A stretch of DNA of 64,000 nt. Source: an uncultured Erythrobacter sp. (GTDB lineage: Bacteria; Pseudomonadota; Alphaproteobacteria; Sphingomonadales; Sphingomonadaceae). The stretch is from contig CANKYK010000001.1 of the NCBI GenBank assembly GCA_947488155.1, positions 930,001 to 994,000 of the forward strand. Direction: 5' to 3'. Shown here piece by piece: positions 20,064 through 47,071 of this stretch (within the stretch, counting starts at the first letter, position 1; each line of letters starts with the position of its first letter). The translations under genes and the position numbers were made by a program. The notes beneath the pieces were generated by a model. That model was not told the DNA's origin and did not search any database. It was given only the letters and a program-made list of their open reading frames with translations.

Positions 20064-20333
20064 ATGCAACAAGATCCATTCCGCAACCAAGCCGACAGCC
20101 CAATGGCACCAGCAGAATATTGCTTTGAAATCACACCCAGCGACACTGACGATCTGATGTGCGCGACCAAGGCTTTGTACGTTGGCGAAGGCGGGGACCT
20201 GGCCATCACCTCGGTCCGCGCCGATGCTCCGGTGGTCTTCACCAGCGTTCCATCAGGCAGCATTATCGATGTCCGCGCCCGGAAAGTCAGCGCATCCGGC
20301 ACGACAGCAGCGAACATTATCGGGCTGGCCTAA
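20064..20333 (+). CDS. phage/GTA-type spike base protein (RCAP_rcc01079-like)
   Basis: MQQDPFRNQADSPMAPAEYCFEITPSDTDDLMCATKALYVGEGGDLAITSVRADAPVVFTSVPSGSIIDVRARKVSASGTTAANIIGLA; small conserved protein pattern (ITPSDT-DL--ATKALYVG-GGDL---VP-GSI--VRARKV-A-GTTA--I). Confidence 0.75.
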   Translation: MQQDPFRNQADSPMAPAEYCFEITPSDTDDLMCATKALYVGEGGDLAITSVRADAPVVFTSVPSGSIIDVRARKVSASGTTAANIIGLA

Positions 20334-22363: not shown

Positions 22364-22420
22364 GTCTTGCGGTGAGCGAAGGGAGCCGGCGCTACTTGTA
22401 TGTTCCGGCTCTCACGCCGC

Positions 22421-24455: not shown

Positions 24456-24518
24456 AGACCTAGCCTCCTAGCCGGGAATACCGCTCCGCGTATGTAAAGG
24501 CATCCCAAGTCATCTAAA

Positions 24519-25349
24519 CTATGGATCCTCATAACCTGCTTGCCTAGCGATGTCTTGCGCGTCAGCTTGTAAACAAAGGCCGCGCGACTTTACTTTCCTC
24601 CGCCTCCACTGTGCACGCCAAAGCGCCAGTGGATTGTTCGATAACGAACAAATTGAGGTAGGAATTGGCAGCTTTGCTCGCCATTTTTTTCGGGCGTAAT
24701 GGTAAGCTTCGCGATAGCCTCCACCAAGTGAGACAATTGGGCGGTTGTTATGAACCACGGGCAGCTCCACTGCCCAAGCCGTTCTGCCAGCTGCAATCGC
24801 GGCCTGCGCCAGATCCGTTCCGTAGAGGTGGAAATACGGCAAATCTGGATCGAATTGGAAACCCGGCTCTCGGCGCAAGATCAAAACCAGCTCGTCAAAT
24901 GAACCGACCTCTGCCGGGGCAAAGCCGCTCGATCCCAGCTCTTTGCCCATCGTCACATCCCAAACCCGGCCAACATGCTCGCCGTTTGGACGAACGCCGT
25001 AAGGGCCTGCAACCATCCAGCCAGGTGCGCTCTCGCTGAGTCCATTGAGAACCGCGACTGCCCGCTCAAGCCAACCCTGCGGCAAATAGACATCTTGGTG
25101 GGTGAAGACGCAAATGGGCCGCATAGTTCTCGCCAGGCCTTGATTGTAAGCGTCGGCCATATTGCTTGCGCCACGGATCTCGGTGATTGTCAGAGCGCCG
25201 CTCGCGACATCAGGAGAACGCAGCAAGCATTCGCTTAATATCTCATCATTATCGACCGCCACGATCAGGCAGAAATCATCAGACTTCAGCGCAGCGGACT
25301 TGGCTTGCGGCACGGCTTTATTCAAACCGCCAGCAGAGGGCGCCACCAC
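24519..25349 (-). CDS. glycosyltransferase family protein
   Basis: EIRGASNMADAYNQGLARTMRPICVFTHQDVYLPQGWLERAVAVL, GT2-like. Confidence 0.65.
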   Translation of the reverse strand: MVAPSAGGLNKAVPQAKSAALKSDDFCLIVAVDNDEILSECLLRSPDVASGALTITEIRGASNMADAYNQGLARTMRPICVFTHQDVYLPQGWLERAVAVLNGLSESAPGWMVAGPYGVRPNGEHVGRVWDVTMGKELGSSGFAPAEVGSFDELVLILRREPGFQFDPDLPYFHLYGTDLAQAAIAAGRTAWAVELPVVHNNRPIVSLGGGYREAYHYARKKWRAKLPIPTSICSLSNNPLALWRAQWRRRKVKSRGLCLQADAQDIARQAGYEDP

Positions 25350-26377
25350 GCCTCATTATCCAAATACCAGCGCAGCGATTGCGCCAGACCTTGCTCGAAG
25401 CTGCGTTGAGGTGCGTAACCGAGATCACGCCGCGCTTTCGTTTCATCGATAGCGTATCGACGATCATGGCCAGCGCGATCTTCGACGAAGGTTTTCAGCT
25501 CTGACGTTTCTCGTCCCTGTGCTGCTGGCGCATCAGGGTATCTTTTCACCAATGCCTCGTTCCGCGCAAAGGCCCGGTCGACTTCCAGGCAAATCGCATC
25601 GATCACAGCCATATTGGGGAGCTCAGCGCCGCCACCAATATTGTAGGTCTCGCCAATCTTGCCGCGCTCAATGCAGGCTTCTATTCCGCGGCAATGATCC
25701 TCGACATGAAGCCAGTCACGCACATTCATACCGTCGCCGTAAATCGGCAGGGGCCGACCCGACAGCGCATTTAGCAAGAACAGCGGAATCAGTTTTTCAG
25801 GATATTGGTAGGGGCCATAATTGTTCGAACAATTGCTGGTGGTTACCTGAAGGCCGTATGTGTGGTGGTAGGCCCGGACCAAGTGGTCAGAGGCTGCCTT
25901 TGAGGCGGAATAGGGCGAATTGGGCGCATATGCCGTGGTCTCACTGAACGCAGGTTCATCCGCAGTCAGTGAGCCAAAAACCTCGTCAGTCGAGATATGG
26001 TGGAAGCGATGCTCGCGCCCGCCACCCTCGTCTAACCAAACTTTACGAGCCGCCTTCAAGAGACAATTCGTTCCCAGAATGTTGGTATCGATGAAGGCAT
26101 CAGGCCCAGTGATGGATCTGTCCACATGGCTTTCGGCCGCAAAGTGTACAATCGTGTCAATGTCGCGCTCGCTAAGCAGCCGCTGAACCAAGGTTTGATC
26201 ACGAATATCGCCTTCGATCAGCTCACATTGCTCAACGCCCTCTATAGTCGAACGATTGCCCGCATAGGTTAGCGCATCGAGCACAACAAGCTGGTCAGCA
26301 GGATGGTGCTTACTCCAAAAGTGCACAAAATTGCCGCCAATAAAGCCCGCACCGCCCGTGATGAGTAGATTAGCCAA
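25322..26377 (-). CDS. rfbB: dTDP-glucose 4,6-dehydratase
   Basis: LLITGGAGFIGGNFVHFW...HFAAESHVDRSI...YSASKAASDHLVRAYHHTYGL. Confidence 0.97.
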   Translation of the reverse strand: MANLLITGGAGFIGGNFVHFWSKHHPADQLVVLDALTYAGNRSTIEGVEQCELIEGDIRDQTLVQRLLSERDIDTIVHFAAESHVDRSITGPDAFIDTNILGTNCLLKAARKVWLDEGGGREHRFHHISTDEVFGSLTADEPAFSETTAYAPNSPYSASKAASDHLVRAYHHTYGLQVTTSNCSNNYGPYQYPEKLIPLFLLNALSGRPLPIYGDGMNVRDWLHVEDHCRGIEACIERGKIGETYNIGGGAELPNMAVIDAICLEVDRAFARNEALVKRYPDAPAAQGRETSELKTFVEDRAGHDRRYAIDETKARRDLGYAPQRSFEQGLAQSLRWYLDNEAWWRPLLAV

Positions 26378-27227
26378 GAGCCTGCTCCTGCTTCAGCATC
26401 ACGCGCAGGTTGTCGCGCCAATCAGGGAAACCGCGCCCCAGAACTTCGCTGGTGATCGAACAATCCAGCCGAGAAAACCTGGGCCGCTTGGCTGGTACCG
26501 GGTATTCCTCACTTGAAATTGGCATGATCGGGATAGAGCGATCAAGCAAACCTATTGCCAAAGCCTCATTCTGTATGGCCACCGCGAAATCGTACCAGCT
26601 CGCTTCGCCAGCATCGCAATAGTGAAATACGCCCTGCTTGCCGCCTTCGACCAGTTCCCAAATCACTTTCGCTAAGCTGCCTGCATAAGTCGGTGCGCCT
26701 ATCTGGTCAGACACTACGTGCAGTTCATCGCGCTCCTTCATCAGCCTAAGCATCGTTGTCACGAAGTTAGCATGCCCTGCGGCGTACACCCAACTTGTCC
26801 GCACGATCAGGGCCTTTTTGCCAGCAGCATCTTCACCAGCCATTTTTGTAGTGCCGTAAACCGACAAAGGGTCCCGTCGATCCGTCGGCTTGTAGGAAAA
26901 TTTGCGTTCACCATTGAAAACGAAGTCGGTGGAAATTTGCACCAATCGAGCGCCGCAACCGGCCGCTGCCTCTGCCAAAAATGAGACGGCATCGGTATTC
27001 AGCAGCTGCGCGGCAGAAGCATCACCCTCGGCCTTATCAACGGCGGTGTACGCAGCAGTGTTTATGATCCAGTCTGGTTGATGCTCATCAATCGTGCGCT
27101 GTACACCCAGTTGATCGGTGACATCCAATTGCAGACGATCAAGGGGGATCAGATCAACCCTACCAGGAACGCAGGCCTGCAACGCACGCCCAACCTGCCC
27201 GTTGGCGCCAGTGACAAGCACCTTCAT
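26370..27227 (-). CDS. rfbD: dTDP-4-dehydrorhamnose reductase
   Basis: [17 protein letters not shown]...INTAAYTAVDKAE...STDFVFNGE...VYGTTKMAGE. Confidence 0.96.
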   Translation of the reverse strand: MKVLVTGANGQVGRALQACVPGRVDLIPLDRLQLDVTDQLGVQRTIDEHQPDWIINTAAYTAVDKAEGDASAAQLLNTDAVSFLAEAAAGCGARLVQISTDFVFNGERKFSYKPTDRRDPLSVYGTTKMAGEDAAGKKALIVRTSWVYAAGHANFVTTMLRLMKERDELHVVSDQIGAPTYAGSLAKVIWELVEGGKQGVFHYCDAGEASWYDFAVAIQNEALAIGLLDRSIPIMPISSEEYPVPAKRPRFSRLDCSITSEVLGRGFPDWRDNLRVMLKQEQALG

Positions 27228-27769
27228 GCAAAGGCTTCCACTTCGGCTAGCGTAGCGCCTCGGCAGTCTTTATCCGACAACACCAACTCAAGATCATCAA
27301 TTGGCCAATCAATCGCCAGTTTGGGGTCATCCCAAGCAAGCGTATGCTCATATTCTGGTGCATAGGCAGACGTACATTTGTAAAGAAAATCAGTATCCGG
27401 CGCGAGCGTCAAAAAGCCATGGGCAAAGCCCTCTGGCACCCAAAACATCCGTTTGTTCGCCTCTGAAAGTTCTACGCCGACCCATTTCCCAAAATGCTCA
27501 GATGAACGCCGTAAATCGACGGCCACATCAAACACCGCGCCCTTGGTAACGCGCACCAGTTTGCCCTGAGGATCGGGATTTTGAAAATGCAAGCCCCGCA
27601 ATACTCCGGCTTGAGAGCGGCTATGATTGTCTTGGACAAACCCGGCATCCAGACCGAGTTCTTTGAAGATTCGCTCGTTCCAACTTTCCAAAAAGAAACC
27701 ACGATCATCACCAAACACGCGCGGCTCGATCAATATCGGCCCTGGAATATCGCACTCTATCAACTTCAC
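27224..27769 (-). CDS. rfbC: dTDP-4-dehydrorhamnose 3,5-epimerase
   Basis: [24 protein letters not shown]...[18 protein letters not shown]. Confidence 0.97.
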
Positions 27770-28656
27770 GCTTGCACCGGATTTTTAAGCAATTGCCGCA
27801 AGTAAGTCCCATAGCCCGATTTGCGCAGAGGCTCCGCAATTTCCTGAAGCTTTTCATCGTCTATGAAACCCTGCCGCCAAGCGATCTCCTCAGGGCAACA
27901 CAGCTTCAAACCCTGACGCTCTTCTGTGATGCGAACAAAGGTCGCAGCATCAAGCAATGAAGCATGCGTACCAGTGTCCAGCCACGCATAGCCGCGCCCC
28001 ATCAACTCCACCGAAAGCGCCTCATCGTCTAGGTACAAGCGATTGAGATCGGTGATTTCCAACTCGCCGCGCGGCGATGGCCTTAGGTCCCGAGCCCGGT
28101 CCACGACCGTCTTATCGTAAAAATATAATCCCGTTACCGCATAATTGGATTTCGGAGCTGCCGGCTTTTCTTCGATGGACACAGCCCGTCCGCGATCATC
28201 AAATTCTACGACGCCATATGCCGCTGGATTGTTTACGCGATAAGCAAATACGCTTGCACCAGAGGTGCGGGCATCGGCATTGGTCAGGTCGCGCGGTAAC
28301 CCGTGGCCATAGAAAATATTATCACCGAGAATGAGAGCGCTTGGCTCGCCATTGATAAAATCTGCACCAATATGAAAAGCCTGCGCCAACCCCTCAGGAT
28401 TTGGCTGCTCCGCATAGCTCAGAGATAAGCCCCAATCGCTGCCATCACCCAGCACTCGGTGAAATTGCGCCGCATCCTCTGGCGTGGTGATGATCAATAT
28501 ATCGCGGATCCCGGCCAGCATTAGAGTGCTGAGCGGATAGTAGATCATTGGCTTATCGAAAACTGGCATCAACTGCTTAGAAACACCGCGCGTCAGCGGG
28601 TATAAACGCGTGCCCGAGCCACCAGCTAGAATGATGCCTTTACGGCTGGTGGTCAT
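27766..28656 (-). CDS. rfbA: glucose-1-phosphate thymidylyltransferase
   Basis: [57 protein letters not shown]. Confidence 0.97.
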
Positions 28657-28898
28657 AGAAAGAAGGCTCCTAATTCTGGAGCAAACACCTCATGCGTTTG
28701 CAACTTCGATTCATTGCAGTGCAGTCTAGCCTGGTCAATGTACAACAGCCGGCTTCCACCAAACTCCTTGGACTAGCCGGAGCAGCCAATCGCACGGACG
28801 CGGCAAAAGCCTGATTGATACGCTGGATAATATGCCAAAAATAACGCACCTTCTGCGGGAAGTAATTGCCCGAACCCAAGAGGCTTGTCGCCAAACAG

Positions 28899-30035
28899 AT
28901 GACAGAAACCGCGACCATCGATGCAATGTTAGCCAGCGCAATGCGCGGCCAGGCTGCGCAATGGACAGGCGAAGGCGTTACGCAGGTTTGGGACCGGATC
29001 GCCTTCCACGGGATCGCAGGAGCGCTCAATTTATGCCGCAACCAACTCTCGGACTGGCCCATCCGGATACTGAATGACATCGGGCAGGAAGCCCAGATTG
29101 CCGCTTTATGGGAAGAAACGCACCGCCTTTGTGTGGCAAAACTTATCCAGCATTTGGCAGAGCGAGGCGTTGAAACAGTCGTCATGAAAGGAACCGCCCT
29201 TGCCTATTCTCTCTACGAGGATGCTTCGGTCCGTCGGCGCGGTGACACGGATTTACTGGTAAAACCGAGTGACCGAAAGACAGCGCGAGACGTGCTCTCA
29301 TCGAGTGGCTGGATCATGCGTGAGGTGCCGCACGGTTTAGTCTATCAGGAAACATGGCTGTTCAAGACAGGCGCCCATTTCGTGCATGAACTGGACCTCC
29401 ATTGGCAAGCGATCGATGGTCCCACATTGCAAGCAATCCTGCCTGCTGAGCTATATTTCGAAGAAGCCGTTCCCCTGCCCAACCTCAGCAAAGCTGCGAT
29501 GGCAGCACCGCCTGTGCTCACCTTGGTCCAAATTGCGCTCAATCAGGCGTGGCACCAAACACATGGCTATGCAGTCAATGAAACCAAAGTGCATGGTGGA
29601 GAGCGGCTGATCTGGGCGAAGGACTACGATTTGCTTGCCCGCAGTTTCGGTCAGCGCGATTGGTCCATGCTAGCAGAGTTCTGCGAAAAGGTCGGTGTAG
29701 GGCCAATTGTATATGCGGCCCTAAAAACCGCGAGAAATGCTTTCCACACCCCCATTCCTGAAGAAGTCGAAACCCAACTAGCACCCCAAACTGGATGCCC
29801 CGAAATTCAAGCCTATCTCGCAGAAACAGACCCAGTCACGCGGTTCAAAACCGATCTCGCCAATGTGCATTCGCCGGCGGCTAAAGCTCGCTTCGCCCTT
29901 GCGCAGGCTTGGCCCAGTGCAGCACATCTGAAGGAGAAATCCGGGGCGGCCCAAAACTGGTCAGTCGCTGGCCTGCGCTTGCAGTGGTTGGCTCGCTCCT
30001 TCATCAGATTAGTGGCTGGACGAAAGCCTTCATGA
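28899..30035 (+). CDS. lasso-cluster-type nucleotidyltransferase family protein
   Basis: TVVMKGTALAYSLYEDASVRRRGDTDLLVKPSDRKTARDVLSSSGW, pattern of the large nucleotidyltransferase family often found in RiPP clusters; ATG 28899 chosen. Confidence 0.75.
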   Translation: MTETATIDAMLASAMRGQAAQWTGEGVTQVWDRIAFHGIAGALNLCRNQLSDWPIRILNDIGQEAQIAALWEETHRLCVAKLIQHLAERGVETVVMKGTALAYSLYEDASVRRRGDTDLLVKPSDRKTARDVLSSSGWIMREVPHGLVYQETWLFKTGAHFVHELDLHWQAIDGPTLQAILPAELYFEEAVPLPNLSKAAMAAPPVLTLVQIALNQAWHQTHGYAVNETKVHGGERLIWAKDYDLLARSFGQRDWSMLAEFCEKVGVGPIVYAALKTARNAFHTPIPEEVETQLAPQTGCPEIQAYLAETDPVTRFKTDLANVHSPAAKARFALAQAWPSAAHLKEKSGAAQNWSVAGLRLQWLARSFIRLVAGRKPS

Positions 30036-31687
30036 AGCGCTCATTCCTATGGCGGCGCGCGCTGGAGTTTAAGCGCGAGCTATCTCTTATCAGCGGGCTT
30101 ACTCTATTAAGTTCCATGGCCACGCTATCCGTGCCTTGGCTGGCCGGACAATTGCTCGGCAGGCTTGCTGATGATACGCCTACCGACCTCGGCAAGATCA
30201 CAGGCCTGTTGGTGCTCGCGCTGGTCATTATGACTGCCATGAATATTGCTGCAAGCATGGTAACCGCTCAGACATCAGGGCGAATACTCGCCAGGCTGAG
30301 ACTTGATGCCTACGGCCACATCCAGAACCTTCCGATAGGTTTTCACGAACAAAGCAGAAGAGGCGATCTCCTGGCGATGATGACTTATGAAGTACGCTTA
30401 CTCAGCGACTTCCTAACCTCCACCATCGCCAATGTGCCAGCCATGCTAATGACGGCTGGCGGCGCGGTGATATTGTTGTTTCTCATCGATCCAACAATCG
30501 CTTTCATCGTTCCGATACTCGTGCCCGTATTCTTCATCGTACTCAAACTCCTTAGCCGGCGGCTCAGAGGGCTGGCCGAGCGGGTCAGAGAAACAGAGGC
30601 AAAGGTGATGTGGATTGCGGACAGCGATCTGGAGATGATCCCCGCGATCAAATCCTTTGCAACCGAAGCCCGGCACAGCAAAGCCTACGCTAGAATTGTT
30701 GATGCGGCGCGTGTCCTCAGCTTGCAGGAAGACCGCATTACAGCCTCAATTGGCCCTGTGATCGCCCTTGCCGCTGGATTGGCCACCATCGCAATTATCG
30801 TGCTTGCTACCTCTGGGGAAGCTGTCGGTGAGCGCGATCCGGCAGAAATGTTCGCCTTTCTGCTCTATGCTGCCTTGCTTACTCGTCCTGTCGGCGGCTT
30901 AGCCAATGTCTACGGCCAGTGGCAGATCGCACGTGGAACGGCCGCGCGGATGGAAAAAATCTTCGCGGTGGAGCCTGAAATCGACGGTTTTGGAAACGAC
31001 ATCACAAACGCCTCACTTTCGACCATCCGGTTCGAAAATGTGAGCTTTGGATATGATAGCCGCGAGCCGATTCTTCGCGGCATCAACTTTGTGATAGAAC
31101 CTGCGCAAGTGATTGCGCTGACCGGAGCAAATGGCGCTGGAAAGTCGACCCTTATCCGATTGCTCTTGCGCTTTTACGAGCCAGACGCGGGACGCATCTT
31201 GCACGGATCGAACAATATCGCCGATTTGCAAATACAGGCCTGGCGCAGGCAGATCGGATATGTTCCTCAGCGCGCGTTGTTGTTCAACGGGACGATAGCC
31301 GACAACATCGAGTTTGGATGCGAAGAAGCAGAACCGCAAGCAATGGAGCGTGCCGCCAGGCAGGCTCAGGCATGGGAATTCATCGCGCAGCTCCCCGATG
31401 GCCTCCACACGGAGATTGGCGACAATGGTATCCGATTGTCAGGTGGAGAGCGTCAGCGCATTGCGCTGGCCCGGGCACTGCTCAATGATCCACCCATCCT
31501 CATACTGGACGAAGCAACCAGCATGTATGACCTTGAAAGCGAAGCAGCCTTCATTGCCGAATGCGAAAGCGCGCTTAGCGGTCGCACCATCATCATCATA
31601 ACACATCGCACAGCGAGCCTTGCGCTTGCCGACCGGGTTTTCGAGGTGAGCGATCAGACCGTATGCGAGGTTGCTACTCAATCCTGA
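30032..31687 (+). CDS. ABC transporter, fused permease/ATPase (lasso peptide exporter candidate)
   Basis: 6-TM domain then LTGANGAGKSTLIRLLLRFY (Walker A), LSGGERQRIALARALLNDPPILILDEATSMYD; ATG overlaps upstream TGA. Confidence 0.9.
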   Translation: MKRSFLWRRALEFKRELSLISGLTLLSSMATLSVPWLAGQLLGRLADDTPTDLGKITGLLVLALVIMTAMNIAASMVTAQTSGRILARLRLDAYGHIQNLPIGFHEQSRRGDLLAMMTYEVRLLSDFLTSTIANVPAMLMTAGGAVILLFLIDPTIAFIVPILVPVFFIVLKLLSRRLRGLAERVRETEAKVMWIADSDLEMIPAIKSFATEARHSKAYARIVDAARVLSLQEDRITASIGPVIALAAGLATIAIIVLATSGEAVGERDPAEMFAFLLYAALLTRPVGGLANVYGQWQIARGTAARMEKIFAVEPEIDGFGNDITNASLSTIRFENVSFGYDSREPILRGINFVIEPAQVIALTGANGAGKSTLIRLLLRFYEPDAGRILHGSNNIADLQIQAWRRQIGYVPQRALLFNGTIADNIEFGCEEAEPQAMERAARQAQAWEFIAQLPDGLHTEIGDNGIRLSGGERQRIALARALLNDPPILILDEATSMYDLESEAAFIAECESALSGRTIIIITHRTASLALADRVFEVSDQTVCEVATQS

Positions 31688-31949
31688 TCAGGTTTTGCTC
31701 GCTTAACTCTATTGCCAGGCCGAGCACGTCTTGCTGGATACTCACAAGCGGCGCATCAAATTCCGCTTCAATTACCTCGCAAAGCTCGGCAATCGAATAG
31801 GGTTTCTCATCGAGCAGGCTCCAAATTCGAGTGCCAACAGCATTCAGACCAAAATAAGTCCCGCTGGCCATATCGAGCAGCACCATTTCGCCGCTCACCT
31901 CTCGCGAGACCACGTCTTCAGACGCACATATGACATCACTCAATTGCAT
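31674..31949 (-). CDS. PqqD-family RRE protein (lasso B1)
   Basis: VVSREVSGEMVLLDMASGTYFGLNAVGTRIWSLLDEKPYSIAELCEVIEAEFDAPLVSIQQDVLGLAIELSEQNLI, classic PqqD layout. Confidence 0.9.
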   Translation of the reverse strand: MQLSDVICASEDVVSREVSGEMVLLDMASGTYFGLNAVGTRIWSLLDEKPYSIAELCEVIEAEFDAPLVSIQQDVLGLAIELSEQNLIRIE

Positions 31950-31959: not shown

Positions 31960-32808
31960 CTACCTGCTCCTCACTGCACGAACCGCTTCGATAACATGCT
32001 CAAGCTCGCGATAGTCGCGGCGATAGTCCAGCGCATAGCACGGAACGTCCTGCGACAGATCGACAAGCCTTGAGAAATGGGCCTTAAGGCGCGGCTTGTC
32101 TTCGACATCTAGAATGAATGAGTGCGGTATCAAGTGCGTCAAAGCGCTGAGTGGGCTGAGCCTGGTGATGCTTACTTTCTCTGGCTCTGCGCTGGCTAGT
32201 ACAAAGATTGCGTCCAATCCTGCAACCTCCTGAGCAAATGGCAATTGCTCAGGCACTGAAACAGCTTGTTTATCCTCGGCTTCAATCCAGTGGTCTTGCG
32301 AGCCGAGCAGAAACTCAGCACTGTCATTGAAAAGGCGCAGCGCTGTAGCCTTTGGCTGGACCCAATAATCGCTTTCTCGCCGTTCAAGCTCAACCACATC
32401 TTCTGTAAGAAATGGAGCGTCTGATTTTGCAAAGGCTCCTGCTAGTGTCGTCTTGCCGCTGCGTGATGGCCCCAAAAAGGCTGCAGCCCTACCGTCAATC
32501 ACAACCGCGCTCCCGTGAAGGCACAGCCCGCCGGAATAATTGGTGAGCAGCGGAAGTATTGCATTGTGAAACAGGTTCTGCGCCGTTTGCTCGGTGCTGC
32601 CGGGCGCAGGCCAAGCGATCACCCCTTGACCATTGCTCGTGATTTGAAAGTCGGCCTCATCCAGGAACCTCAAGTGGAAGCCATCGCCATCTCGCCGGAA
32701 TTCGGCCTTTATCTCGCCATCAGGATCAACCCAGCGATCATAGGGCTGGGGCGATAAATCTGTTTGCGCTCGCACCTCTGCGAGTTCCAGGCGGATCACA
32801 GCGTGCAA
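31960..32808 (-). CDS. HPr kinase-like protein (RiPP tailoring kinase candidate)
   Basis: LCLHGSAVVIDGRAAAFLGPSRSGKTTLAGAF (Walker A) with LTEDVVELE; adjacent PqqD. Confidence 0.8.
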   Translation of the reverse strand: MHAVIRLELAEVRAQTDLSPQPYDRWVDPDGEIKAEFRRDGDGFHLRFLDEADFQITSNGQGVIAWPAPGSTEQTAQNLFHNAILPLLTNYSGGLCLHGSAVVIDGRAAAFLGPSRSGKTTLAGAFAKSDAPFLTEDVVELERRESDYWVQPKATALRLFNDSAEFLLGSQDHWIEAEDKQAVSVPEQLPFAQEVAGLDAIFVLASAEPEKVSITRLSPLSALTHLIPHSFILDVEDKPRLKAHFSRLVDLSQDVPCYALDYRRDYRELEHVIEAVRAVRSR

Positions 32809-33923
32809 TCCTTGGCTAACACCTGCATCACAAAGTCACGAACGGCCTGATCACTTGGAAACAACTTTGGTCGGTCCCTCAAGACCTGATCCACAATCTC
32901 TTGACTCGTGCGCACCCCATCAACCTGGGCCAATACAAACGCACGCGCCGCGCCATGATCTGATAAAGCAGGCGCTTGTCCGTTTGACACCGCCAAGTCA
33001 GTGGGTTTCAGCAAGGTCCCTTGCCAGGTTGAGAGCTTCTGAACGGGCGCGTCATTGGGGGGCTGTATCGTCCAAGCCAGCATCTCTTCCGCATGGCGAA
33101 TGCGGATTGAGAATTCGACTTCATCGCCCTCTTCAACCCGGAAAGGTTCGGCTGCTGGCAAGAACGCTTGCGAGCGGCCAATGCTGGCAGGATCAAACGG
33201 CGAATTGGTCATCCGCACACCCTGACTCAATGCACAATCAAACCACCCAGCCACTCCGTCAAACACGCCGGAATGAATGATCGATAGCGAAGCGCTAAAC
33301 CTGAAAATCTCTGGGTTGTCTTCACAAAAGGATATGCGACCCAGTTGCACCGCACCACTAATCAGTTCGTCAACAGAGTAGCTGTGGTGATGCTTTGCGT
33401 GCCGATTATAGCCATCAAGCCAGCGATATTCTGACGGAATATGCTCTGCCTGCCATGCGCCGGCCTTACTCCGGCATTCCTCGCTTGAAACGCCCGCAAC
33501 CATCAAATTCATCGACTGAGGCACAATTGCGCCGCCCGGCTTTAGAAACCGCCTGCGCGCATCCTCAAGCATCGCAATGATGCCATAATCGAACCCGAAA
33601 AAGCCAACGTGGTCGCAAATCAGCAGATCGACCTTCTCTGGTAACTCAGCGTGGAAAGCTGATTGCGGAACGCAGTGATAGCGATCTTCCAAACCAGCCT
33701 TCGCCATGCTCTCGCGCGCGAGATGGATCGCATCGCTGCTATCAATGCCCCACACCTCTGAAGCGCCTGTCTCCAAGCAAAGCAGCCCTAAAACGCCGAG
33801 CCCGCAGCCAAGATCCGCTACGGTATCTCCAGGCTGAATAGCCTCTTCGATAGCTTGGCGATATATCGTCAGGCGCTCTGAGAGATTGAGATATTCAAGA
33901 TGCTCGTTCAGGATGTCGATCAT
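32796..33923 (-). CDS. PRMT-like class I SAM methyltransferase with PqqD-like C-terminal segment
   Basis: GDTVADLGCGLGVLGLLCLETGASEVWGIDSSDAIHLARE (motif I/post I), LPEKVDLLICDHVGFFGFDYG; C-terminal LKPTDLAVSNGQAPALSDHGAARAFVLAQVDGVRTSQEIVDQVLRDRPKLFPSDQAVRDFVMQVLAKDCTL resembles PqqD helices. Confidence 0.75.
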   Translation of the reverse strand: MIDILNEHLEYLNLSERLTIYRQAIEEAIQPGDTVADLGCGLGVLGLLCLETGASEVWGIDSSDAIHLARESMAKAGLEDRYHCVPQSAFHAELPEKVDLLICDHVGFFGFDYGIIAMLEDARRRFLKPGGAIVPQSMNLMVAGVSSEECRSKAGAWQAEHIPSEYRWLDGYNRHAKHHHSYSVDELISGAVQLGRISFCEDNPEIFRFSASLSIIHSGVFDGVAGWFDCALSQGVRMTNSPFDPASIGRSQAFLPAAEPFRVEEGDEVEFSIRIRHAEEMLAWTIQPPNDAPVQKLSTWQGTLLKPTDLAVSNGQAPALSDHGAARAFVLAQVDGVRTSQEIVDQVLRDRPKLFPSDQAVRDFVMQVLAKDCTL

Positions 33924-33984: not shown

Positions 33985-34113
33985 CTAGTTCATCGCCATC
34001 ATGATCATACCGTCCATCATCATGGTGGCGCTACCGCCGGTCAAATTTCGTACAGAACCGTATGCGGTCAGGCGTGGCGGTGTATATTTCGCTTTTTTTG
34101 CTTGCTGTTTCAT
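33985..34113 (-). CDS. lasso peptide precursor, predicted core GSATMMMDGMIMMAMN
   Basis: MKQQAKKAKYTPPRLTAYGSVRNLTG|GSATMMMDGMIMMAMN; leader matches Y-x2-P-x-L-x3-G-x5-T with Thr at -2; core Gly1 and Asp8. Confirmed codon by codon on the minus strand. Longer 76-aa ORF start (34215) runs into the upstream cyclase gene. Confidence 0.92.
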   Translation of the reverse strand: MKQQAKKAKYTPPRLTAYGSVRNLTGGSATMMMDGMIMMAMN

Positions 34114-34160
34114 AAGGCGACCTTGCTGGTTTGGCCGCGCGTCAGGAAACATTGCGACCA

Positions 34161-36071
34161 TCAGCGGAAATGATACAAAAAAGCCGCGCAAGCGTAAACT
34201 CCCCACACCTCCCACGAACGCTCATCTGGGATTGTGCCAGACGCATCTGGCCGCAGAAGACACTGAAACCCGGCTTCATCGCACATATTATCGAGCAGAG
34301 GATCGGCATTCTTGCGAGCGAAGTCAGCGAATTCTCGGTCCAGCTCTGGCGACGGGAAATCCGCTTTGGTAGTCCGATCTAGGATCACATCCGGCACAAT
34401 TCCTCGCAGTGCCCTACGATGGATATATTTGCTGTGACCAGCTCGCCGACGAATATGTTCCGGCGTGCTGGCCGAAAATTCGATGAAGGCCTTGCTCAAC
34501 ATTGGATTGCGCGGTTCCAAACCAGCCCTCGCATATTGCCCCTGCATCATCGTGTTTGCCATGTCCGTGCCCGGCGCGCGTACGAGATTGAGCTTGCTCC
34601 AACGCACCGGCTCGCTTGGCAGTGAGGTGACGTAGCTGTCTTCAAACTCGGCCAGTCGGTGTCTGGTCTCCTCCGTCAACCAATCGAGATATTCCTTCCG
34701 CTCCCTCGCTTTCTGCCGCTTATAGTCTCGGCCCCGATCTCGAATGATTTCCGGCAGAAGCGTCATGGTCATATGCCGCAAGGCAATGGGCAACGTTTGC
34801 CGCCATCCTTCAGCCGCCGCGTCCTGGCGCAAGGCCCGCGCAAACCCCGCAACGTCGCCAGCCTCGGTAAACTCTCGGTAGTAGTGACGGCTGCCTTGCA
34901 GCCATTCATCACCCCCGTCGCCGCCCATCAAAGCCCTGCAACCATCTGCCGCAGCTGCATTTTCCAACCCAATACTCATCGCGCCATTGGTAGGGATCGG
35001 TAGATCATATTGCGTGCGTGCCTGCTCCGTGAACCAATCGATGGGCGGCTGCGTTAGAGGCACTTCACATAATTGGGCACCAACATGCTCCGCCGCGGCT
35101 CTGGCGAACGGCAATTCATAGGCGGGGGAGCCTGACGCTCCCGCAAGAGTATACCCTGAGATTGATGGCGCGGGCAGTTCGCCTCGCTCTGCTAATTGAT
35201 ATGCCAAACAATAGAGAGCGCTAGAATCGAGACCGCCGCTTACCGTCACTCCAAGAGGCCCATGAGAACGCGAAGTTCGGCGGACACAATCTTTCAATAG
35301 ATGTCGGTAATGCTCAAAATAGTCCTCATCACGGGGATACCGAGTGGTGACTTCCGGGTCCAGCGACCAGTGCTCTTTTAAGGTCAGGCGATTTGCCGAG
35401 AAACTCAGCGAATGGGCAGGCAATAAGCGCTTGATACCCTGCCAAGGTGTTGCATCGCGCTGATGCCATTTGTCCGCCATGACGCCGGCCAAATAATCAA
35501 GATCTGGCCTTGGCTTTGGTTCAATCCGCGGAACCAGTGCCGATAGGTCAGAAGCAAACAGCAATTGCTGGCCATCAAAGTGATAAAACAAGGGCCGCAG
35601 ACCCATGTGATCGCGCGCGCAATAAACAAGCGGATTGCTCGGATCGGACCGACAATCAGTCAGAGCGAGGGCAAATTCGCCGTCTAAATGACGTGCGCAA
35701 TCCTCGCCCCATTGCTGGTACGCGCGCAGCACCAGCTCCGTGTCCGTTCGATTGCGCAGCACCACGCCAAGTCTCAGCAAGTCGGCGCGAAGCTCCTCCC
35801 AATTGATGAGGAACCCATCAAACACGAGAGCAATCCGCCGGTCTTCGCTGCAATGCGGCTGGGTTTCGTCCTGCGCTTCGCTCGTTACACGCAGTAGGCT
35901 GGCACCCAATCCCACGAGGCTCTCATTTCCCGTTGAGCGACCACGGTCGGATGCGTTCGATAGCCAAGTAGCGGCGCCATCCTGGCCGCGATCCGCGATG
36001 GCGTCCGTCATTGCCTTGAGGGTCGCAGGGTCCGCACCATCAGCACAATAGAGCCCAGCGATCCCGGTCAT
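34161..36071 (-). CDS. asparagine synthase-like lasso macrolactam synthetase (lasso C)
   Basis: MTGIAGLYCADGADPATLKAMTDAIADRGQDG and LGVTVSGGLDSSALYCLAYQL (SGGLDSS). Residue 2 is Thr, not the Cys nucleophile of glutamine-dependent enzymes. Confidence 0.92.
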   Translation of the reverse strand: MTGIAGLYCADGADPATLKAMTDAIADRGQDGAATWLSNASDRGRSTGNESLVGLGASLLRVTSEAQDETQPHCSEDRRIALVFDGFLINWEELRADLLRLGVVLRNRTDTELVLRAYQQWGEDCARHLDGEFALALTDCRSDPSNPLVYCARDHMGLRPLFYHFDGQQLLFASDLSALVPRIEPKPRPDLDYLAGVMADKWHQRDATPWQGIKRLLPAHSLSFSANRLTLKEHWSLDPEVTTRYPRDEDYFEHYRHLLKDCVRRTSRSHGPLGVTVSGGLDSSALYCLAYQLAERGELPAPSISGYTLAGASGSPAYELPFARAAAEHVGAQLCEVPLTQPPIDWFTEQARTQYDLPIPTNGAMSIGLENAAAADGCRALMGGDGGDEWLQGSRHYYREFTEAGDVAGFARALRQDAAAEGWRQTLPIALRHMTMTLLPEIIRDRGRDYKRQKARERKEYLDWLTEETRHRLAEFEDSYVTSLPSEPVRWSKLNLVRAPGTDMANTMMQGQYARAGLEPRNPMLSKAFIEFSASTPEHIRRRAGHSKYIHRRALRGIVPDVILDRTTKADFPSPELDREFADFARKNADPLLDNMCDEAGFQCLLRPDASGTIPDERSWEVWGVYACAAFLYHFR

Positions 36072-36114: not shown

Positions 36115-37038
36115 TCACCAAATCTGCCTATTTTCAGATTCTGCCGCAAAGACATCGCACAATGGTTGCAATATGCTGAGCTCGAAATGCTCAGCCCAGA
36201 GGTGCGGCCTCACCAGCTTTTCACAGCCAGCGGGATAAAAGTGGAAGAACAAGAGATTGCAATACCCTCCGCGCGTGATCGGATCACGGTAATGCCACTG
36301 GGACGAGCCATTGAAGAGCAACGCCTGGTTCGGCTCTAGCTCATGCGATGTCCAATCCATCCCGGCGTCATCCTTGAGGTCTTCCTCATTCCAAGCCTGC
36401 ATCGCATCAGCATCAGGCAATTCCACTTGCTTGCTGAAGTGTATCGGCCAGCTGCCGCTTTGCTCGATACAATAATCGAGCGTGTACATCGACATCGGCT
36501 CATCCAGATGCGGTGCACACTGGCCAGAACCCCCGTATAGGCTCAGGAAGTTGTATCCCGTCACCAATTCGCGCTCTGCAAGCTCGCTCACCAAAGGCAG
36601 TAGGCCCTGCTGCAATTGCAGAAAGAATGGATGATCGTGGACTACATCACGTCCGAATTTCTCGACCTCGTGGCGTTCGAGCTGCGCGGCGGGAAGGCTT
36701 TGGACCACCGAGCCGATCTCATGCCGAACAGCGTCATCAAACAGCGCATCGATAGTGCAAATCTCGAACTTATCGGCTGGGCGCAGCGGCGCGAATCCAG
36801 CGACAAATCGCTCCAAATACTCGGGAGCCACCTCTCCTATATACAACTTTGCTGCCTCGAACCGGCGCAAGAAATGCGCGTCGTACCACGGCACTTCGCC
36901 GAGCTTTGCGACCGACGCGATGGCCGCCAAATGGAGATCGAGATAGTCACGATCGCCCAACCTGTCCTTGATCGCCTCACTCAGCATTTGGCTCACATAG
37001 CACACCGCGAGGCATAGGCGATAAGGCGGATAAACCAC
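36115..37038 (-). CDS. 2OG-Fe(II) oxygenase-like protein
   Basis: LYGGSGQCAPHLDEPMSMYTLDYCI (HxD) ... NQALLFNGSSQWHYRDPITRGGYCNLLFFHFYP (distal His). Start may be at 36987 (MLSEAIKDRLG...). Confidence 0.65.
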   Translation of the reverse strand: MVYPPYRLCLAVCYVSQMLSEAIKDRLGDRDYLDLHLAAIASVAKLGEVPWYDAHFLRRFEAAKLYIGEVAPEYLERFVAGFAPLRPADKFEICTIDALFDDAVRHEIGSVVQSLPAAQLERHEVEKFGRDVVHDHPFFLQLQQGLLPLVSELAERELVTGYNFLSLYGGSGQCAPHLDEPMSMYTLDYCIEQSGSWPIHFSKQVELPDADAMQAWNEEDLKDDAGMDWTSHELEPNQALLFNGSSQWHYRDPITRGGYCNLLFFHFYPAGCEKLVRPHLWAEHFELSILQPLCDVFAAESENRQIW

Positions 37039-37059: not shown

Positions 37060-37587
37060 TTGTCGCAAGCGGCCAAGTCTGGCATCTATTGCAAAGTGAC
37101 AACGAGAGTTTCCTCCGTGCCCACAGAGGGCCAGAAACCCAAACTGAGGGATGCTCTTTGGATTGGGCACTACAGCGTGCGCGGTATGGTGGAGCTTGTT
37201 CAGGCTCGGCTGGCATTCGCGAAACTGGATATGCGCGCACTTGATCAGCGCAATGGAAAGGCGGCCTTGGCCCGTCAAGAGCAGCCTCAGCCTAGCTCAA
37301 AACGAGCGGAGACCATCGCCCGCATCGGCTATATTCTGCCTCGTTTGTCCGCTCGTTTGCCGTGGCGCAGTGATTGCTTGATACAAGCGATCGCTGGGCA
37401 GAACTGGCTAAGCCAATTAGGCATCCCAAGTGTGATTGAGCTTGGAGTTAAACGAGAAGAGGCCAATGGCTTAAACTCGCATGCTTGGTTGCTGTGCGGA
37501 GGCCAGATCGTGCTGGGCAGCAGCAAAGAGCTTTACAATCCGATCTTTCCGCACAATTCAAAGCCAATCACCCCACATAACAAGTAA
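37060..37587 (+). CDS. lasso peptide leader peptidase B2 (transglutaminase-like)
   Basis: RLPWRSDCLIQAIAGQNWLSQLGIPSVIELGVKREEANGLNSHAWLLCGGQIVLGSS: Cys and HAW motif of B2 family. N-terminal start uncertain. Confidence 0.88.
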   Translation: MSQAAKSGIYCKVTTRVSSVPTEGQKPKLRDALWIGHYSVRGMVELVQARLAFAKLDMRALDQRNGKAALARQEQPQPSSKRAETIARIGYILPRLSARLPWRSDCLIQAIAGQNWLSQLGIPSVIELGVKREEANGLNSHAWLLCGGQIVLGSSKELYNPIFPHNSKPITPHNK

Positions 37588-37679: not shown

Positions 37680-37991
37680 ATGGTGCCAACATTACGAGCT
37701 CAAATAGCGTTTTTTGCCGCAGCACTTGGGCTGTTTTTCGCGCCAATCTCTGCGCATGCCAACACGCGAGCAGGCGACTATTCTGTCTGCTGCGCAGCTT
37801 CAACCGATAGGGCCTCGTCTAACGCTATCAGTGATCGAGACTGGTTTGCCGAGGATGCAGATCGCGGTGCACTATGGCTGGCGCTTTTGGGCGGTGTGGG
37901 AATAATCATCGGAATCCTGATCATCCAAGAAGATGATGATCCTGCGCAGCGCGGTGATGGAGGCCTCAATCAATCTCCAGGGGCCAATTGA
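37680..37991 (+). CDS. small secreted/membrane hypothetical protein
   Basis: Signal peptide, one C-terminal TM, acidic tail. Confidence 0.55.
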   Translation: MVPTLRAQIAFFAAALGLFFAPISAHANTRAGDYSVCCAASTDRASSNAISDRDWFAEDADRGALWLALLGGVGIIIGILIIQEDDDPAQRGDGGLNQSPGAN

Positions 37992-38014: not shown

Positions 38015-39358
38015 ATGCGTGCTGATCGCATTTCTCCTCGATCAAGCGCCTATGCGCTGGCTGCGCTACTGACCATTGCGGTGATCATTGGTGGAGGCGG
38101 CGTCAGATACGGTCTGGCAAACCTGGCTGTACAACTTGCAGCACTCTTCGTTCTCGGCTTTCATCGCGGTGCCTTTGTTAAGTTTTGGAGCACGACACCG
38201 TTTGGCCTTCGCGCTCTCGTTGGTGCGTGCTTATTGCTTCCGGCTATACAGCTCATCCCGTTACCAAACGGAATTCTTGCAATCTTGCCCGGCAGACACC
38301 TTGTGCTCGAAGCGCACTCGCTGGCCGGGGTGAACACCTGGTTTCCCATAAGCGTTGATCCGGCCAGAACGCTGGTCGCATTTGCCGGCCTGATCTTGCC
38401 ACTCTCGGTACTCGTTGTCGCTTACCAACTTTCGCGGCGCCAATTGATCTGGATCGCTTGGACACTGGTGGGCTTGGCACTGGTTAGCGTATTGCTGGGC
38501 GCCGTACAGGTCGTGAGCCAGGGTCAAAGTGGTCTGCTCTATCCAGAGAACCCAATGCCCGGGGTACTTTTTGGAACCTTTGCCAATCGCAATTCCACTG
38601 GCCTGTTTATGGTTTCGGCGCTTGCGCTTGCCGCACTGTTGCCCGCTCCCTCCAGCACCTCATCGTTTCTTTTCTGGCGCGCCATGATCTGCCTAATGCT
38701 GATCACGGCCATTCTTCTCACTCGCTCACGCACCGCTATTGTCCTGGCCGCGTTGCCACTCGCGATGTTGCTTGCGAAGAGCATGGGAGCAAGGCTGAAC
38801 GAGGCGCAGGCGAACGCTAGCAAAGGACATCGACGAGGCAAGAAAGGCATTGTTGCTGGTCTCTCGTGTGTGGCATTGATCGCCAGCCTTTTCGCCTTTG
38901 CGCCTGGGCGGATCAGCGACAGCCTTGATCGGTTTGAAGCGAGAGACGACGCGCGCATCTATATCTGGGAAGATGCAACCTACACTGCCGGTCGATATTG
39001 GCCGATTGGATCGGGCATAGGCACGTTCGACGAGGTTTTTCAGCTCGACGAATCTCTTGAAAATCTGACACCTCGGCGAGCTGGGCGCGCTCACAACGAC
39101 TATTTGGAAGTCGCAATTGAAGCAGGCCTAATTGGGATTTTCCTCATCGCTTTATGGCTTGCTTGGATCGCCTGGATGACATGGCGGGCGCGGCTGTCAG
39201 CGCATAAATGGGTCGCTTGGGGCAGCAGCGTAATATTGGTTGGCATCGCGGCTCAGTCATTGGTGGATTTTCCACTCCGCAGCCAAACCATGTTGGGGGT
39301 GGCCGCATTCGCGCTCATCTTGCTGCTGCGTTTTAGTAGAGTTGGACAGGAACAATAG
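38015..39358 (+). CDS. O-antigen ligase family protein
   Basis: Multi-TM; GSGIGTFDEVFQLDESLENLTPRRAGRAHNDYLEVAIEAGLIGIFLIALWL Wzy_C motif. Confidence 0.9.
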   Translation: MRADRISPRSSAYALAALLTIAVIIGGGGVRYGLANLAVQLAALFVLGFHRGAFVKFWSTTPFGLRALVGACLLLPAIQLIPLPNGILAILPGRHLVLEAHSLAGVNTWFPISVDPARTLVAFAGLILPLSVLVVAYQLSRRQLIWIAWTLVGLALVSVLLGAVQVVSQGQSGLLYPENPMPGVLFGTFANRNSTGLFMVSALALAALLPAPSSTSSFLFWRAMICLMLITAILLTRSRTAIVLAALPLAMLLAKSMGARLNEAQANASKGHRRGKKGIVAGLSCVALIASLFAFAPGRISDSLDRFEARDDARIYIWEDATYTAGRYWPIGSGIGTFDEVFQLDESLENLTPRRAGRAHNDYLEVAIEAGLIGIFLIALWLAWIAWMTWRARLSAHKWVAWGSSVILVGIAAQSLVDFPLRSQTMLGVAAFALILLLRFSRVGQEQ

Positions 39359-39360
39359 GC

Positions 39361-40077
39361 ATGAAGCAGGCTTTATGGCTCATCGCTTTGGTCCTGATCG
39401 GTCTCGTTACCACAGGAGTGCAGCTGGACCGGCAGGCCCGCGTGTCAGGCGATCTCGCGGCGCCGGTTCCCACACCGTTTCGAGCCTTTGCTCAGGAGAG
39501 GCTCGCCACCCGAACCCTTGCAGCCAGCGACTCAAACCAAGCGCTTGCTGAAGCTCAGCGATTGGTCGCGCGGCGTCCGCTCCCCGCCGAGCATCTTCGC
39601 ATTCTGGCCATAGCCCAAGCCCTCAATCAAAACGACACAGGAAGCCTGCAGACGTTGCAAACCGCGAGCCAGCGCGGCTGGCGCGACCCAATCACGCAAG
39701 AAGCAGTTTTGAGACTAGCCATCGAAACGGGCAACCACAGGGAGGCCGCCAGACGATATGCGGCCTTGATGGCCATGCCAAACACGTCAAACCCCCTACT
39801 GTCCGAACTGGGAGAGGCAGCCTTGGAGACCCCTGATGGTCGCAGCACCTTTGCCGCTGTTTTAGCTCCGGCAAAGCGCTGGCATCGAACTTTCCTAAGG
39901 CGCGGGTTGCCGAACCTGAAGCCGCGGGCGTTCGCTGAACTGATTGCCGAAGCACAAGATCTGGGCGCAAAGTTTGATTGCGCGCAATTGCAGCAAACAG
40001 CACGGGCTCTGAATGACAAAACAGATGCCTCGAGCCAGCCGGCAAGGCTCTCGATCGATCAAGGCTGCGTGGAATAG
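39361..40077 (+). CDS. hypothetical membrane-anchored protein, TPR-like
   Basis: N-terminal TM then alpha-helical Ala-rich repeats. Confidence 0.55.
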   Translation: MKQALWLIALVLIGLVTTGVQLDRQARVSGDLAAPVPTPFRAFAQERLATRTLAASDSNQALAEAQRLVARRPLPAEHLRILAIAQALNQNDTGSLQTLQTASQRGWRDPITQEAVLRLAIETGNHREAARRYAALMAMPNTSNPLLSELGEAALETPDGRSTFAAVLAPAKRWHRTFLRRGLPNLKPRAFAELIAEAQDLGAKFDCAQLQQTARALNDKTDASSQPARLSIDQGCVE

Positions 40078-40281
40078 AAACGGTGCAAGCCGAGAAACCT
40101 CATCCGTTTATCACTGCCTTTTTACGTTCACGCCCGTTTCAAGCTAGTTTTCCCTTCTCCATCAGGCTGAGCCGATACAACCGCCACCAGCCCAAGGTCA
40201 CGTCACCGAAATTTGTAACCGAAACTATCGTGTCGACGAATGTTTTGGCGCAGGACAGAAATTCTCGAGTAAGGGGCGAGC

Positions 40282-41247
40282 ATGGCTGACACCATTGATA
40301 AGCGCGCCAAAGAAAGCACAGACCAGGAAATCCGTCGCCCACGGACCTTGGCGTTTGTCATTACCTTCGGTCTGTTAATCGCTCTTTCAGAGGGTCTTTT
40401 GCGATTGGTCGCTTGGGCTCAAGACGCGGTCGGCTGGGCGTTGATCGACCATGATATTGATCTCCTCTGGGCCGGCTTCGCAGCAGCCTTGGTCAATGCG
40501 ATCTTTACTTACACAGGCTTGGTCGCGCTCTTCGCCTTCTTTGAATGGCGTCACCTGGGCTTTAAAGACTTTCGCCGACGTTATGCCGAGGGTTTGCTGT
40601 ATGGAGCCACAGCTATTGTCATCGCGGTGATGCTGCAAACTGCGGCTTTCTCCAGTCTGCAAACCTTGGATTTCGAGCCCGTTTTCCAGATCCAAGATTT
40701 GGGGCCTGTCTCGTTGCTATTCCCGATCATCTACATGGTCATAATCGGCTTCTTCGAATACTGGCTGCACCGCGCGCTTCACGATGTTCCCTTCCTTTGG
40801 CGGCTGCACGCTATCCATCACCAAATCGAAGACATGAACGCCGCGCGCAGCTACTCCCACTGGGCTCAGGACGCGGTATATCTGGCAGTTATTACAGTCC
40901 CTCTGATCTTTCTGGTAGAGAGCCCGCAGGGTTTTGTCGCATTGCTAACGACGTTCTATTTGATCTCGAACTACTACATGCACACCGACAATCCGGCCTT
41001 GTCGTTCCCACCGATTCTTCGACATGTGCTAGCCGACAATGTCTATCATCATTATCACCATTCGCGCCGCATCGAGCATTGGGGGCGCAACTATTGCTCG
41101 TTCTTTTCTTTCTACGACCGGATTTTTGGCACGCAGCATATGCCGCGAGACGAAACCTTTCATGCAACCGGCATTGACGGCTACGCGCCGCTGGAAAACT
41201 GGCGTGATTATCTGATCCGCCCTTTTACAAACCGGGGCAAGACATGA
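40282..41247 (+). CDS. sterol desaturase/fatty acid hydroxylase family protein
   Basis: EYWLHRALHDVPFLWRLHAIHHQIEDMNAARSYSHWAQD and DNVYHHYHHSRRIEHWGRNYCSFFSFYDRIFGTQHMP histidine boxes. Confidence 0.93.
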   Translation: MADTIDKRAKESTDQEIRRPRTLAFVITFGLLIALSEGLLRLVAWAQDAVGWALIDHDIDLLWAGFAAALVNAIFTYTGLVALFAFFEWRHLGFKDFRRRYAEGLLYGATAIVIAVMLQTAAFSSLQTLDFEPVFQIQDLGPVSLLFPIIYMVIIGFFEYWLHRALHDVPFLWRLHAIHHQIEDMNAARSYSHWAQDAVYLAVITVPLIFLVESPQGFVALLTTFYLISNYYMHTDNPALSFPPILRHVLADNVYHHYHHSRRIEHWGRNYCSFFSFYDRIFGTQHMPRDETFHATGIDGYAPLENWRDYLIRPFTNRGKT

Positions 41248-41807
41248 CCGAACGCAGATGGCTTTACCTAGGTCTTGCTAGCGTCCTCAGCGCACCTTTG
41301 CTTTGGGCGACAGCAACATTCCTTTGGACACCGGCAAGTGACTTGGCCGGTGTCCACAGCACCATTAAAGCAAACATACCCGAAATTGCGCATATTTCGG
41401 CGCAGCAGCTTGCGGCCAGCGATCCCGACACAACGATCATCTTTGATACCCGTGAGGCAGAAGAATACGCCGTCAGCCACCTCCCCGGCTCCATTCGCAT
41501 CCCGCCAGAGATGTCAGTTGCAGATTTTATGAGAAATTTTGAGCATTTGATATCGGGTAAAACGGTGGTTTTCTATTGCTCGGTTGGCGTACGCTCAACA
41601 CAATACGCAAGCAAAATTCAGAACGCGATACGAACAAATGGGGGCATCAAAACCGTCAATTTAGAGCTCGGCCTGTTCGGCTGGCACAATGATGGTCGCC
41701 CGCTTGTCAACCAGCGAGGTGAAGCAACTATGCTGATCCATCCCTATGATGATAATTGGGGGCAACTTCTCGAACGAAAATCGTTCGCATCCAAATTTCC
41801 GAAATAA
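41244..41807 (+). CDS. rhodanese-like domain protein, membrane-anchored
   Basis: TTIIFDTREAEEYAVSHLPGSIRIPPE...GKTVVFYCSVGVRSTQYASKI (Cys active-site loop). Confidence 0.9.
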   Translation: MTERRWLYLGLASVLSAPLLWATATFLWTPASDLAGVHSTIKANIPEIAHISAQQLAASDPDTTIIFDTREAEEYAVSHLPGSIRIPPEMSVADFMRNFEHLISGKTVVFYCSVGVRSTQYASKIQNAIRTNGGIKTVNLELGLFGWHNDGRPLVNQRGEATMLIHPYDDNWGQLLERKSFASKFPK

Positions 41808-41886
41808 TTTTTCAGAATTTTGTAACCCAATCGACTCTTCCAACGAACGGACGGGTAACGTCTATATCAATTGTAGGGAAAACATC

Positions 41887-42225
41887 GTGCGAAGCGCAAT
41901 CTTATCAACGGCAGCCATCGTCTTGGCATTGGGTTCCGCTCCAGCTTTCGCGTCAGGTTCTGGCGGGGGTGGAGGCGGTTATGGCGGCTTCAGTGGCGGT
42001 TCCGGTGCCTCAGCACCGCGCATCTCACCAGCTGAAAGATTGGAGCGCCGCGGCAAATCCCAAGTGCGCAAACGCATCACGTGTAAAAAGTGCAGTTATC
42101 ATGGGAAGTTGAATCAGCAAACAGCCGCTGAAGTTGCAAAAGCTGTTCAAGGCGGTCAGTTCAATTTGAAAGGCAAAAACCGTGAAGCGGTTTTGTACTA
42201 TCTGCGGCAACGCTACGGAGTTTAA
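41887..42225 (+). CDS. small secreted Gly-rich protein with CKKC motif
   Basis: GTG start inferred; signal peptide ending AFA, SGSGGGGGGYGGFSGGSG, then KRITCKKCSYHGKLNQQT. Confidence 0.55.
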   Translation: MRSAILSTAAIVLALGSAPAFASGSGGGGGGYGGFSGGSGASAPRISPAERLERRGKSQVRKRITCKKCSYHGKLNQQTAAEVAKAVQGGQFNLKGKNREAVLYYLRQRYGV

Positions 42226-42243
42226 CAGCCTCCGCTAGCCTCA

Positions 42244-44325: not shown

Positions 44326-44395
44326 ATTCTATGTAACAATTGCTGGCAACGCGGCGAACATCAATTGAACGCTTTTAGGTTACAAGGATGAAGTC

Positions 44396-45238: not shown

Positions 45239-45274
45239 TGCGCGCACTTAGCGCTTGCCACCTGCCAGCGAACT

Positions 45275-45946: not shown

Positions 45947-45949
45947 AAG

Positions 45950-46906: not shown

Positions 46907-47071
46907 TTAACAAAGCTGGCCTTTGGTGCGAATCCACCCGTTCGCCGGTTGTCCAAGCCTAACTCACTCGAAACTGGCTGTGCTCAGTTGGCCGATGGTT
47001 ATGTTCTCTCCGAAGCGATCACTCAATGGCTCTCATCCCCCGGCCTGATTTGCTTTCTCTAGTCCCGTCGA

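Follow-up and report, generated by a model that had tools for sequence, protein, structure and literature searches.

The 64,000-nucleotide stretch of DNA analysed here (the window) belongs to a marine, Erythrobacter-like sphingomonad and encodes a lasso peptide that is unusually full of methionine. A complete lasso cluster lies at 28.9-37.6 kb and comprises B1, B2, cyclase, an HprK-like kinase, a nucleotidyltransferase, an ABC exporter, a methyltransferase (MT) and a 2OG-oxygenase-like protein (OX). Three of the genes are on the plus strand: the nucleotidyltransferase (28866-30035; NTP_transf_5, PF14907, 4.5e-28), the ABC exporter (29909-31687; PF00664/PF00005), whose listed 5' end overlaps the nucleotidyltransferase ORF and thus suggests a later true start, and the leader peptidase B2 (37060-37587; Transglut_core3, PF13471, 3.2e-22; NF033537 above cut-off). 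On the minus strand are B1, a 91-aa PqqD-type RiPP recognition element (RRE; 31674-31949; PF05402, 2e-16), the 282-aa kinase (31960-32808), which has weak NCBIfam HprK_rel_A/ScmC matches and a P-loop, GPSRSGKTT, that can be read directly, the 375-aa MT (32796-33923), the precursor, the 636-aa asparagine-synthetase-like cyclase C (34161-36071; PF00733/PF13537; NF033535 at 1.1e-76, below its cut-off) and OX (36115-36987, about 290 aa). The start of OX was placed at MLSEAIKD from its homologues, the listed ORF extending to 37038. A small plus-strand protein at 37680-37991, which matches no Pfam family and is kept beside B2 in many relatives, may be a member of the lasso cluster or of the adjoining polysaccharide genes.

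The cluster sits inside a polysaccharide locus, flanked by rmlA/C/D and a Wzy_C ligase, and in most relatives it occupies this same site, between rml and Wzy genes. The surrounding exopolysaccharide genes (12760-28656 and 38015-49939) include Wza/Wzc-like proteins, glycosyltransferases, rml and two Wzy_C proteins, and the rml/Wzy placement is found genus-wide. Adjoining the polysaccharide genes are a DUF547 protein and then a radical SAM protein (44396-46906). Further along, at 53930-63481, an HATPase protein, a C-5 cytosine DNA methylase and a TIR (ThsB-like) protein may form a defence island.

The precursor A gene, at 33985-34113 on the minus strand, runs from ATG to TAG and encodes 42 aa: a 26-aa leader (34036-34113; MKQQAKKAKYTPPRLTAYGSVRNLTG) and a 16-aa core (33988-34035; GSATMMMDGMIMMAMN), with the stop codon at 33985-33987. 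A purine-rich AAGG lies 8-11 nt upstream of the ATG. The gene is hidden in a listed 76-aa ORF with a GTG start (33985-34215) that overlaps the end of the cyclase gene at 34161, as an earlier note on this DNA had recognized; the coordinates that it gave for the 42-aa precursor were right. The precursor scores 23.5 bits against the NCBIfam leader model lasso_leader_L3 (NF033521; cut-off 19) and has Thr at position -2 of the leader. The closest relative (G053, locus L038), whose cyclase is 85% identical, keeps the same ATG and frame; its precursor codons show 11 synonymous and 3 non-synonymous differences, and its core reads GSATLMMDGMIMMAMD. The note had named a different conserved start or frame in homologues as grounds for giving up its claim, and this comparison showed none. 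Neighbourhood comparison placed homologous precursors at the corresponding position in dozens of relatives. The leader model, the kept frame and start and the homologues confirm that this ORF is a genuine lasso precursor, beyond chance.

The core has G1, D8, seven methionines (positions 5, 6, 7, 10, 12, 13 and 15) and a C-terminal Asn, all as the note had read them, and it contains neither Arg nor Lys. It also lacks Cys, as in class II lasso peptides, which have no disulfide. The homologues, the complete set of biosynthetic genes and the acceptor, an Asp or Glu that is kept at position 8 (at 9 in a few) in all 49 cores compared, support the predicted G1-D8 ring. With a B1 RRE, a B2 peptidase and a C macrolactam synthetase encoded near the precursor, the predicted product is a lasso peptide on every feature that can be tested from sequence, new in its tailoring set and of no new class. 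Its methionine content, which the note was right to single out and for which it knew no equal among characterised lasso peptides, is indeed very high (7 of 16) but not the highest in the family: the core of locus L039 (7161-7307; GSGGAMMDGMLMMSLPGGMMNMGMGNMGMGMGFF) has 12 Met in 35 aa, the most seen, up to ten of them in a tail with a GMGMGMG-like or GNMGMG-like repeat.

Relatives were found by searching related genomes with the cyclase and MT, and about 50 neighbourhoods were extracted. The comparison set comprised 49 precursors, that of the window included: 31 from MT-bearing clusters with a readable precursor and 18 from kinase-bearing loci at the same chromosomal site that have no MT (for example GSGTRFRDGAVTNSRF). 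Within the genus the leader block YGSVRNLTG is nearly unchanged and the cores vary widely. A methionine in the tail is present in all 31 cores with MT (at least two in 28, and at acceptor +4 to +8 in 30) and in none of the 18 without. Conversely, tail Arg is found in 18/18 cores from MT-less clusters versus 6/31 from MT-bearing ones, and 21 of the latter 31 contain no Arg or Lys at all. Methionine in the ring is optional (15/31). Met is also the sole residue found in every tail of the MT-bearing set, and among the genes compared only MT (plus OX in a subset) differs, core aside, between the two kinds of cluster in the genus. Fisher's test of tail Met against MT gives p 9e-14, a value that ignores the relatedness of the loci. 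What is new here is thus a comparative rule, by which tail Met occurs exactly where the MT gene is present in about 50 related clusters and is likely to be the target of MT.

On the cyclase tree, changes in MT presence and in tail Met coincide on two branches, one leading to the clade of L052 and L133 (with RRV/RRS tails) and the other to a 16-row RFRDG clade. With just two independent losses a pairwise sign test is unable to reach significance (p 0.5), and counting events supports no claim of it. Other evidence argues more strongly for the coupling. Within the deeply diverged MT-bearing rows of the tree, the presence of Met changes 0 times, that of Thr 7, of Ser 8 and of Gly 4. In 16 of the 18 MT-less genomes there is no MT anywhere in the genome, and the other two (G038 and G439) carry MT beside its own Met-tailed precursor, GSANxGxDGALGMTMNP, away from the resident cluster and among housekeeping genes. 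These orphan precursor and MT pairs (L091, 7749-9125; L092, 7661-9038) have no B, C or transporter gene; it is possible that they are a two-gene supplement that relies on the maturation enzymes of the resident cluster. Distant MT proteins of 25-29% identity (L104 and L105) are likewise paired with Met tails in unrelated cores. It is conceivable that MT and tail Met lack any causal link and were simply co-inherited and twice lost together by chance, an idea that draws on there being only two losses and a powerless sign test; with Met persisting across the deep divergence while the other tail residues all turn over, and with the orphan and distant pairs, we regard it as most improbable.

Some observations count against the rule. 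In more distant clusters where no kinase or MT homologue was found, Met is the last residue of the L056 core and is also present in the tail of L055b. These loci (L055, 9610-10247; L056, 6768-7031) have Cys-bearing cores (GSCAFLADSFVGAPGDGGVFINCP, GSCGFDADTLFGVSPAGNDMGFGC and GSSFTMLDQFCGGSGNGFRDCFRPRM) behind the same leader and are possibly a disulfide-type branch. Three relatives of MT have no readable precursor (L053, L109 and L103), L103 lying outside a lasso context; L109 has MT, kinase, B1 and B2 at about 8.9-9.7 kb, no cyclase and, upstream of MT, a possible decayed precursor (...GGSMGVTDIGMAM). Outside the family, a class-wide MT profile search of the Alphaproteobacteria returned PRMT-like proteins, and tblastn on 16 such loci, each only a few kb long, found no other lasso gene. 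No MT was found on plasmids.

The MT itself is a homologue of the protein arginine methyltransferases (PRMTs) by sequence and predicted fold, over its catalytic and barrel domains. Its profile matches PRMT1 at 5e-40, and its AlphaFold2 model (pLDDT 91) has PRMT6, CARM1 and PRMT3 as the best Foldseek matches (2e-26). In PRMTs, two Glu of a conserved loop hold the guanidinium of the substrate Arg. This double-Glu signature, SEWMGYFLLYES (SExMGxxLxxE), reads CDHVGFFGFDYG in MT, with the first Glu replaced by Asp (D104) in 29/29 sequences and the second, in most of them, by Tyr. MT thus shares fold and sequence homology with PRMT1, 3, 4 and 6 but differs from them in this loop, in its presumed substrates, which mostly have no Arg, and in an extra C-terminal helical domain of about 60 aa, for which no match was found. 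We considered a PqqD/RRE identity for the latter and rejected it, as the fragment has no Pfam match and its hhalign alignment to B1 proteins is not significant. Most MT-bearing cores contain no Arg, which makes it an unlikely substrate, and, with the double-Glu loop gone as well, we reject arginine methylation for most members. Since no side chain other than that of Met is shared by all tails of the MT-bearing cores, S-methylation is proposed, and MT probably methylates a tail Met to give an S-methylmethionine that would stand in for Arg. We know of no PRMT-fold enzyme that methylates Met.

With this in mind, one may suggest an ordered tailoring scheme. The kinase would act on the leader-bearing linear precursor and phosphorylate a ring Ser (S2 in the window). 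MT would then move a methyl group from SAM onto the thioether of at least one tail Met, creating an S-methylmethionine sulfonium, and OX, where present, would add a hydroxyl group. After tailoring, B1/B2 would cut off the leader, C would join G1 to D8 around the tail and the ABC protein would export the finished peptide. According to this scheme the threaded tail has to carry Met, the residue on which the PRMT-fold MT of the cluster acts. Because a sulfonium is permanently cationic, the Arg of the MT-less relatives is suggestive: these carry a genetically encoded tail Arg, which the charge of the modified Met would replace. Eight MT-bearing tails already contain K/R, so such a charge replacement is not universal, and the up to ten Met of the L039 tail exceed the need of a single methylation, which counts against the proposal. 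The whole explanation, a class II-type lasso peptide with a tail in which Met is required as MT substrate, made in this order, is in our judgement evenly balanced between right and wrong. The broader reading, that a PRMT-fold enzyme was repurposed from Arg to Met to make Met-sulfonium lasso peptides, S-methyl-Met and encoded Arg interchanging in the family, is offered more tentatively and falls somewhat short of an even chance.

The kinase gene is kept in clusters with and without MT alike. Paeninodin-type lasso kinases modify a C-terminal Ser (PMC8498205), and we rejected this type of phosphorylation (paeninodin, SyanK) for the present family, as the window core ends in Asn and only 1/49 cores ends in Ser. 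A different site is known from Bradymonas, where BsfK, from a lasso cluster with kinase and nucleotidyltransferase, adds phosphate to Ser3 in the ring of a core with a C-terminal Asp (PMC10368454). Ser or Thr occupies core position 2 or 3 in 49/49 precursors (Ser at 2 in the window, at 3 in a few relatives), which fits ring phosphorylation. S2 is also kept in L055 and L056, for which the search gave no kinase homologue, and may therefore serve recognition instead.

The most serious alternative is that MT acts at a site other than Met, such as the C-terminal carboxylate, a backbone amide, a Ser/Thr/Asn side chain or an Asp, the Met tails being kept for another reason, for example contact with a hydrophobic target or membrane. 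The known lasso methyltransferases do act in this way, on the carboxyl terminus (LasF, StspM; PMC8498205) or on a ring Asp (LihM, aspartimide; PMC13352647), and the C-termini of the MT-bearing cores are patternless (P, M, N, A, V, F, I and others), as a residue-blind carboxyl methyltransferase could tolerate. We nevertheless think it unlikely, because it leaves unexplained why Met comes and goes with MT and why it alone is present in every MT-bearing tail, and because MT belongs to the PRMT type. The note's membrane-active peptide had been put forward from composition, and we found nothing specific in its favour. More generally, the comparison points away from the note's ideas on function, as the conserved Met are those of the predicted tail, not of the ring, and are tied to MT; its mention of a possible +14 Da shift was well placed.

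A role as metal ligand, which the note had also put forward from composition, would have the Met clusters bind Cu(I) or Ag(I) through their thioethers, with MT tuning or blocking some of them. Met-rich motifs are established ligands of these ions, and MxM or MM occurs in 23/31 of the MT-bearing tails, and L039 has its GMGMGMG-like tail. Three of these tails have a single Met, though, no copper or silver gene was found among the window proteins scanned, the conserved neighbours being exopolysaccharide genes, and S-methylation would be unexpected in a chelator, as the sulfur of a sulfonium no longer has an electron pair to donate; a metal ligand thus seems improbable to us.

A redox role, with Met as sacrificial oxidant or with a sulfoxide made by OX as a designed modification, would draw on the properties of OX. 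This protein matches no Pfam family; its best Foldseek matches (the BesD/HalD family and ALKBH6 at about 1e-7, and SnoN) place it in the 2OG-Fe(II) oxygenase fold, and its HxD...H iron site is intact, with H177-x-D179 and H249 invariant. OX occurs only with MT (15 cores, versus none from MT-less clusters). Yet the cyclase tree shows some 7 gains or losses of OX while tail Met persisted, Met being kept in clusters without OX. No residue stood out as OX substrate when the cores of OX-bearing clusters were inspected by eye. The sacrificial oxidant of the note had its origin in composition and gained nothing specific from our comparison; we judge a redox role quite improbable.

Several characterized systems resemble parts of the cluster. 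The lasso peptides with kinase and nucleotidyltransferase (paeninodin, S. yanoikuyae SyanK, pseudomycoidin and Bradymonas bsf) share with it B1/B2/C, the kinase, the ABC exporter and, in some, the nucleotidyltransferase (PMC8498205, PMC10368454), as well as a YxxPxL leader in which the -2 residue is fixed; the window cluster adds MT, OX and the Met-rich tail and departs from the C-terminal-Ser rule of the kinases. SAM methyltransferases are also found in the lasso clusters of LasF and StspM (C-terminal methyl ester) and of LihM (aspartimide), but MT is a PRMT homologue that co-varies with tail Met, and none of these enzymes is described as acting on Met. CanE, the Asp hydroxylase of canucin A, is an iron/2OG hydroxylase in a lasso cluster, as OX is predicted to be; the likeness is one of description rather than of sequence, and OX has no Pfam match. 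The sole Met-sulfonium RiPP precedent that we found in the open-access literature is longipeptin A, which is not described as a lasso peptide. Its Met13 is an S-methyl sulfonium, with LopH, compared here by description and not by sequence, as the proposed and unproven enzyme (PMC11285071). Our searches of that literature returned nothing that joins lasso peptide, methyltransferase and sulfonium, and nothing relevant on methionine-rich lasso peptides.

To our knowledge, programmed S-methylation of Met in peptides is nearly unheard of, and a lasso peptide whose threaded tail bears a permanent cation would, if true, represent a new chemotype. The coupling of MT to Met also bears on the role of PRMT-like bacterial methyltransferases once the arginine signature is gone, and about 30 natural pairs of precursor and MT are available for comparison. 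Should the methyl group sit elsewhere than on Met, the strict requirement for Met becomes a sharper puzzle.

A separate observation concerns lasso precursors fused to a C-terminal Peptidase_S74 domain, an intramolecular chaperone, in loci L094 (about 8.4-8.8 kb, minus strand), L095 (about 7.3-7.7 kb), L096 (about 7.4-7.8 kb) and, in diverged form, L036 (about 2.6-3.0 kb). The domain matches PF13884 at about 1e-6 in L094 and L095. We found no link between lasso peptides and S74 in the open-access literature. In these fusions the S-x4-K dyad (SDPRAK) begins directly after the core, and MyRF is cleaved just before the equivalent S74 Ser (PMC8326128), so that self-cleavage at this point would define the C-terminus of the lasso peptide (...M / SDPRAK).
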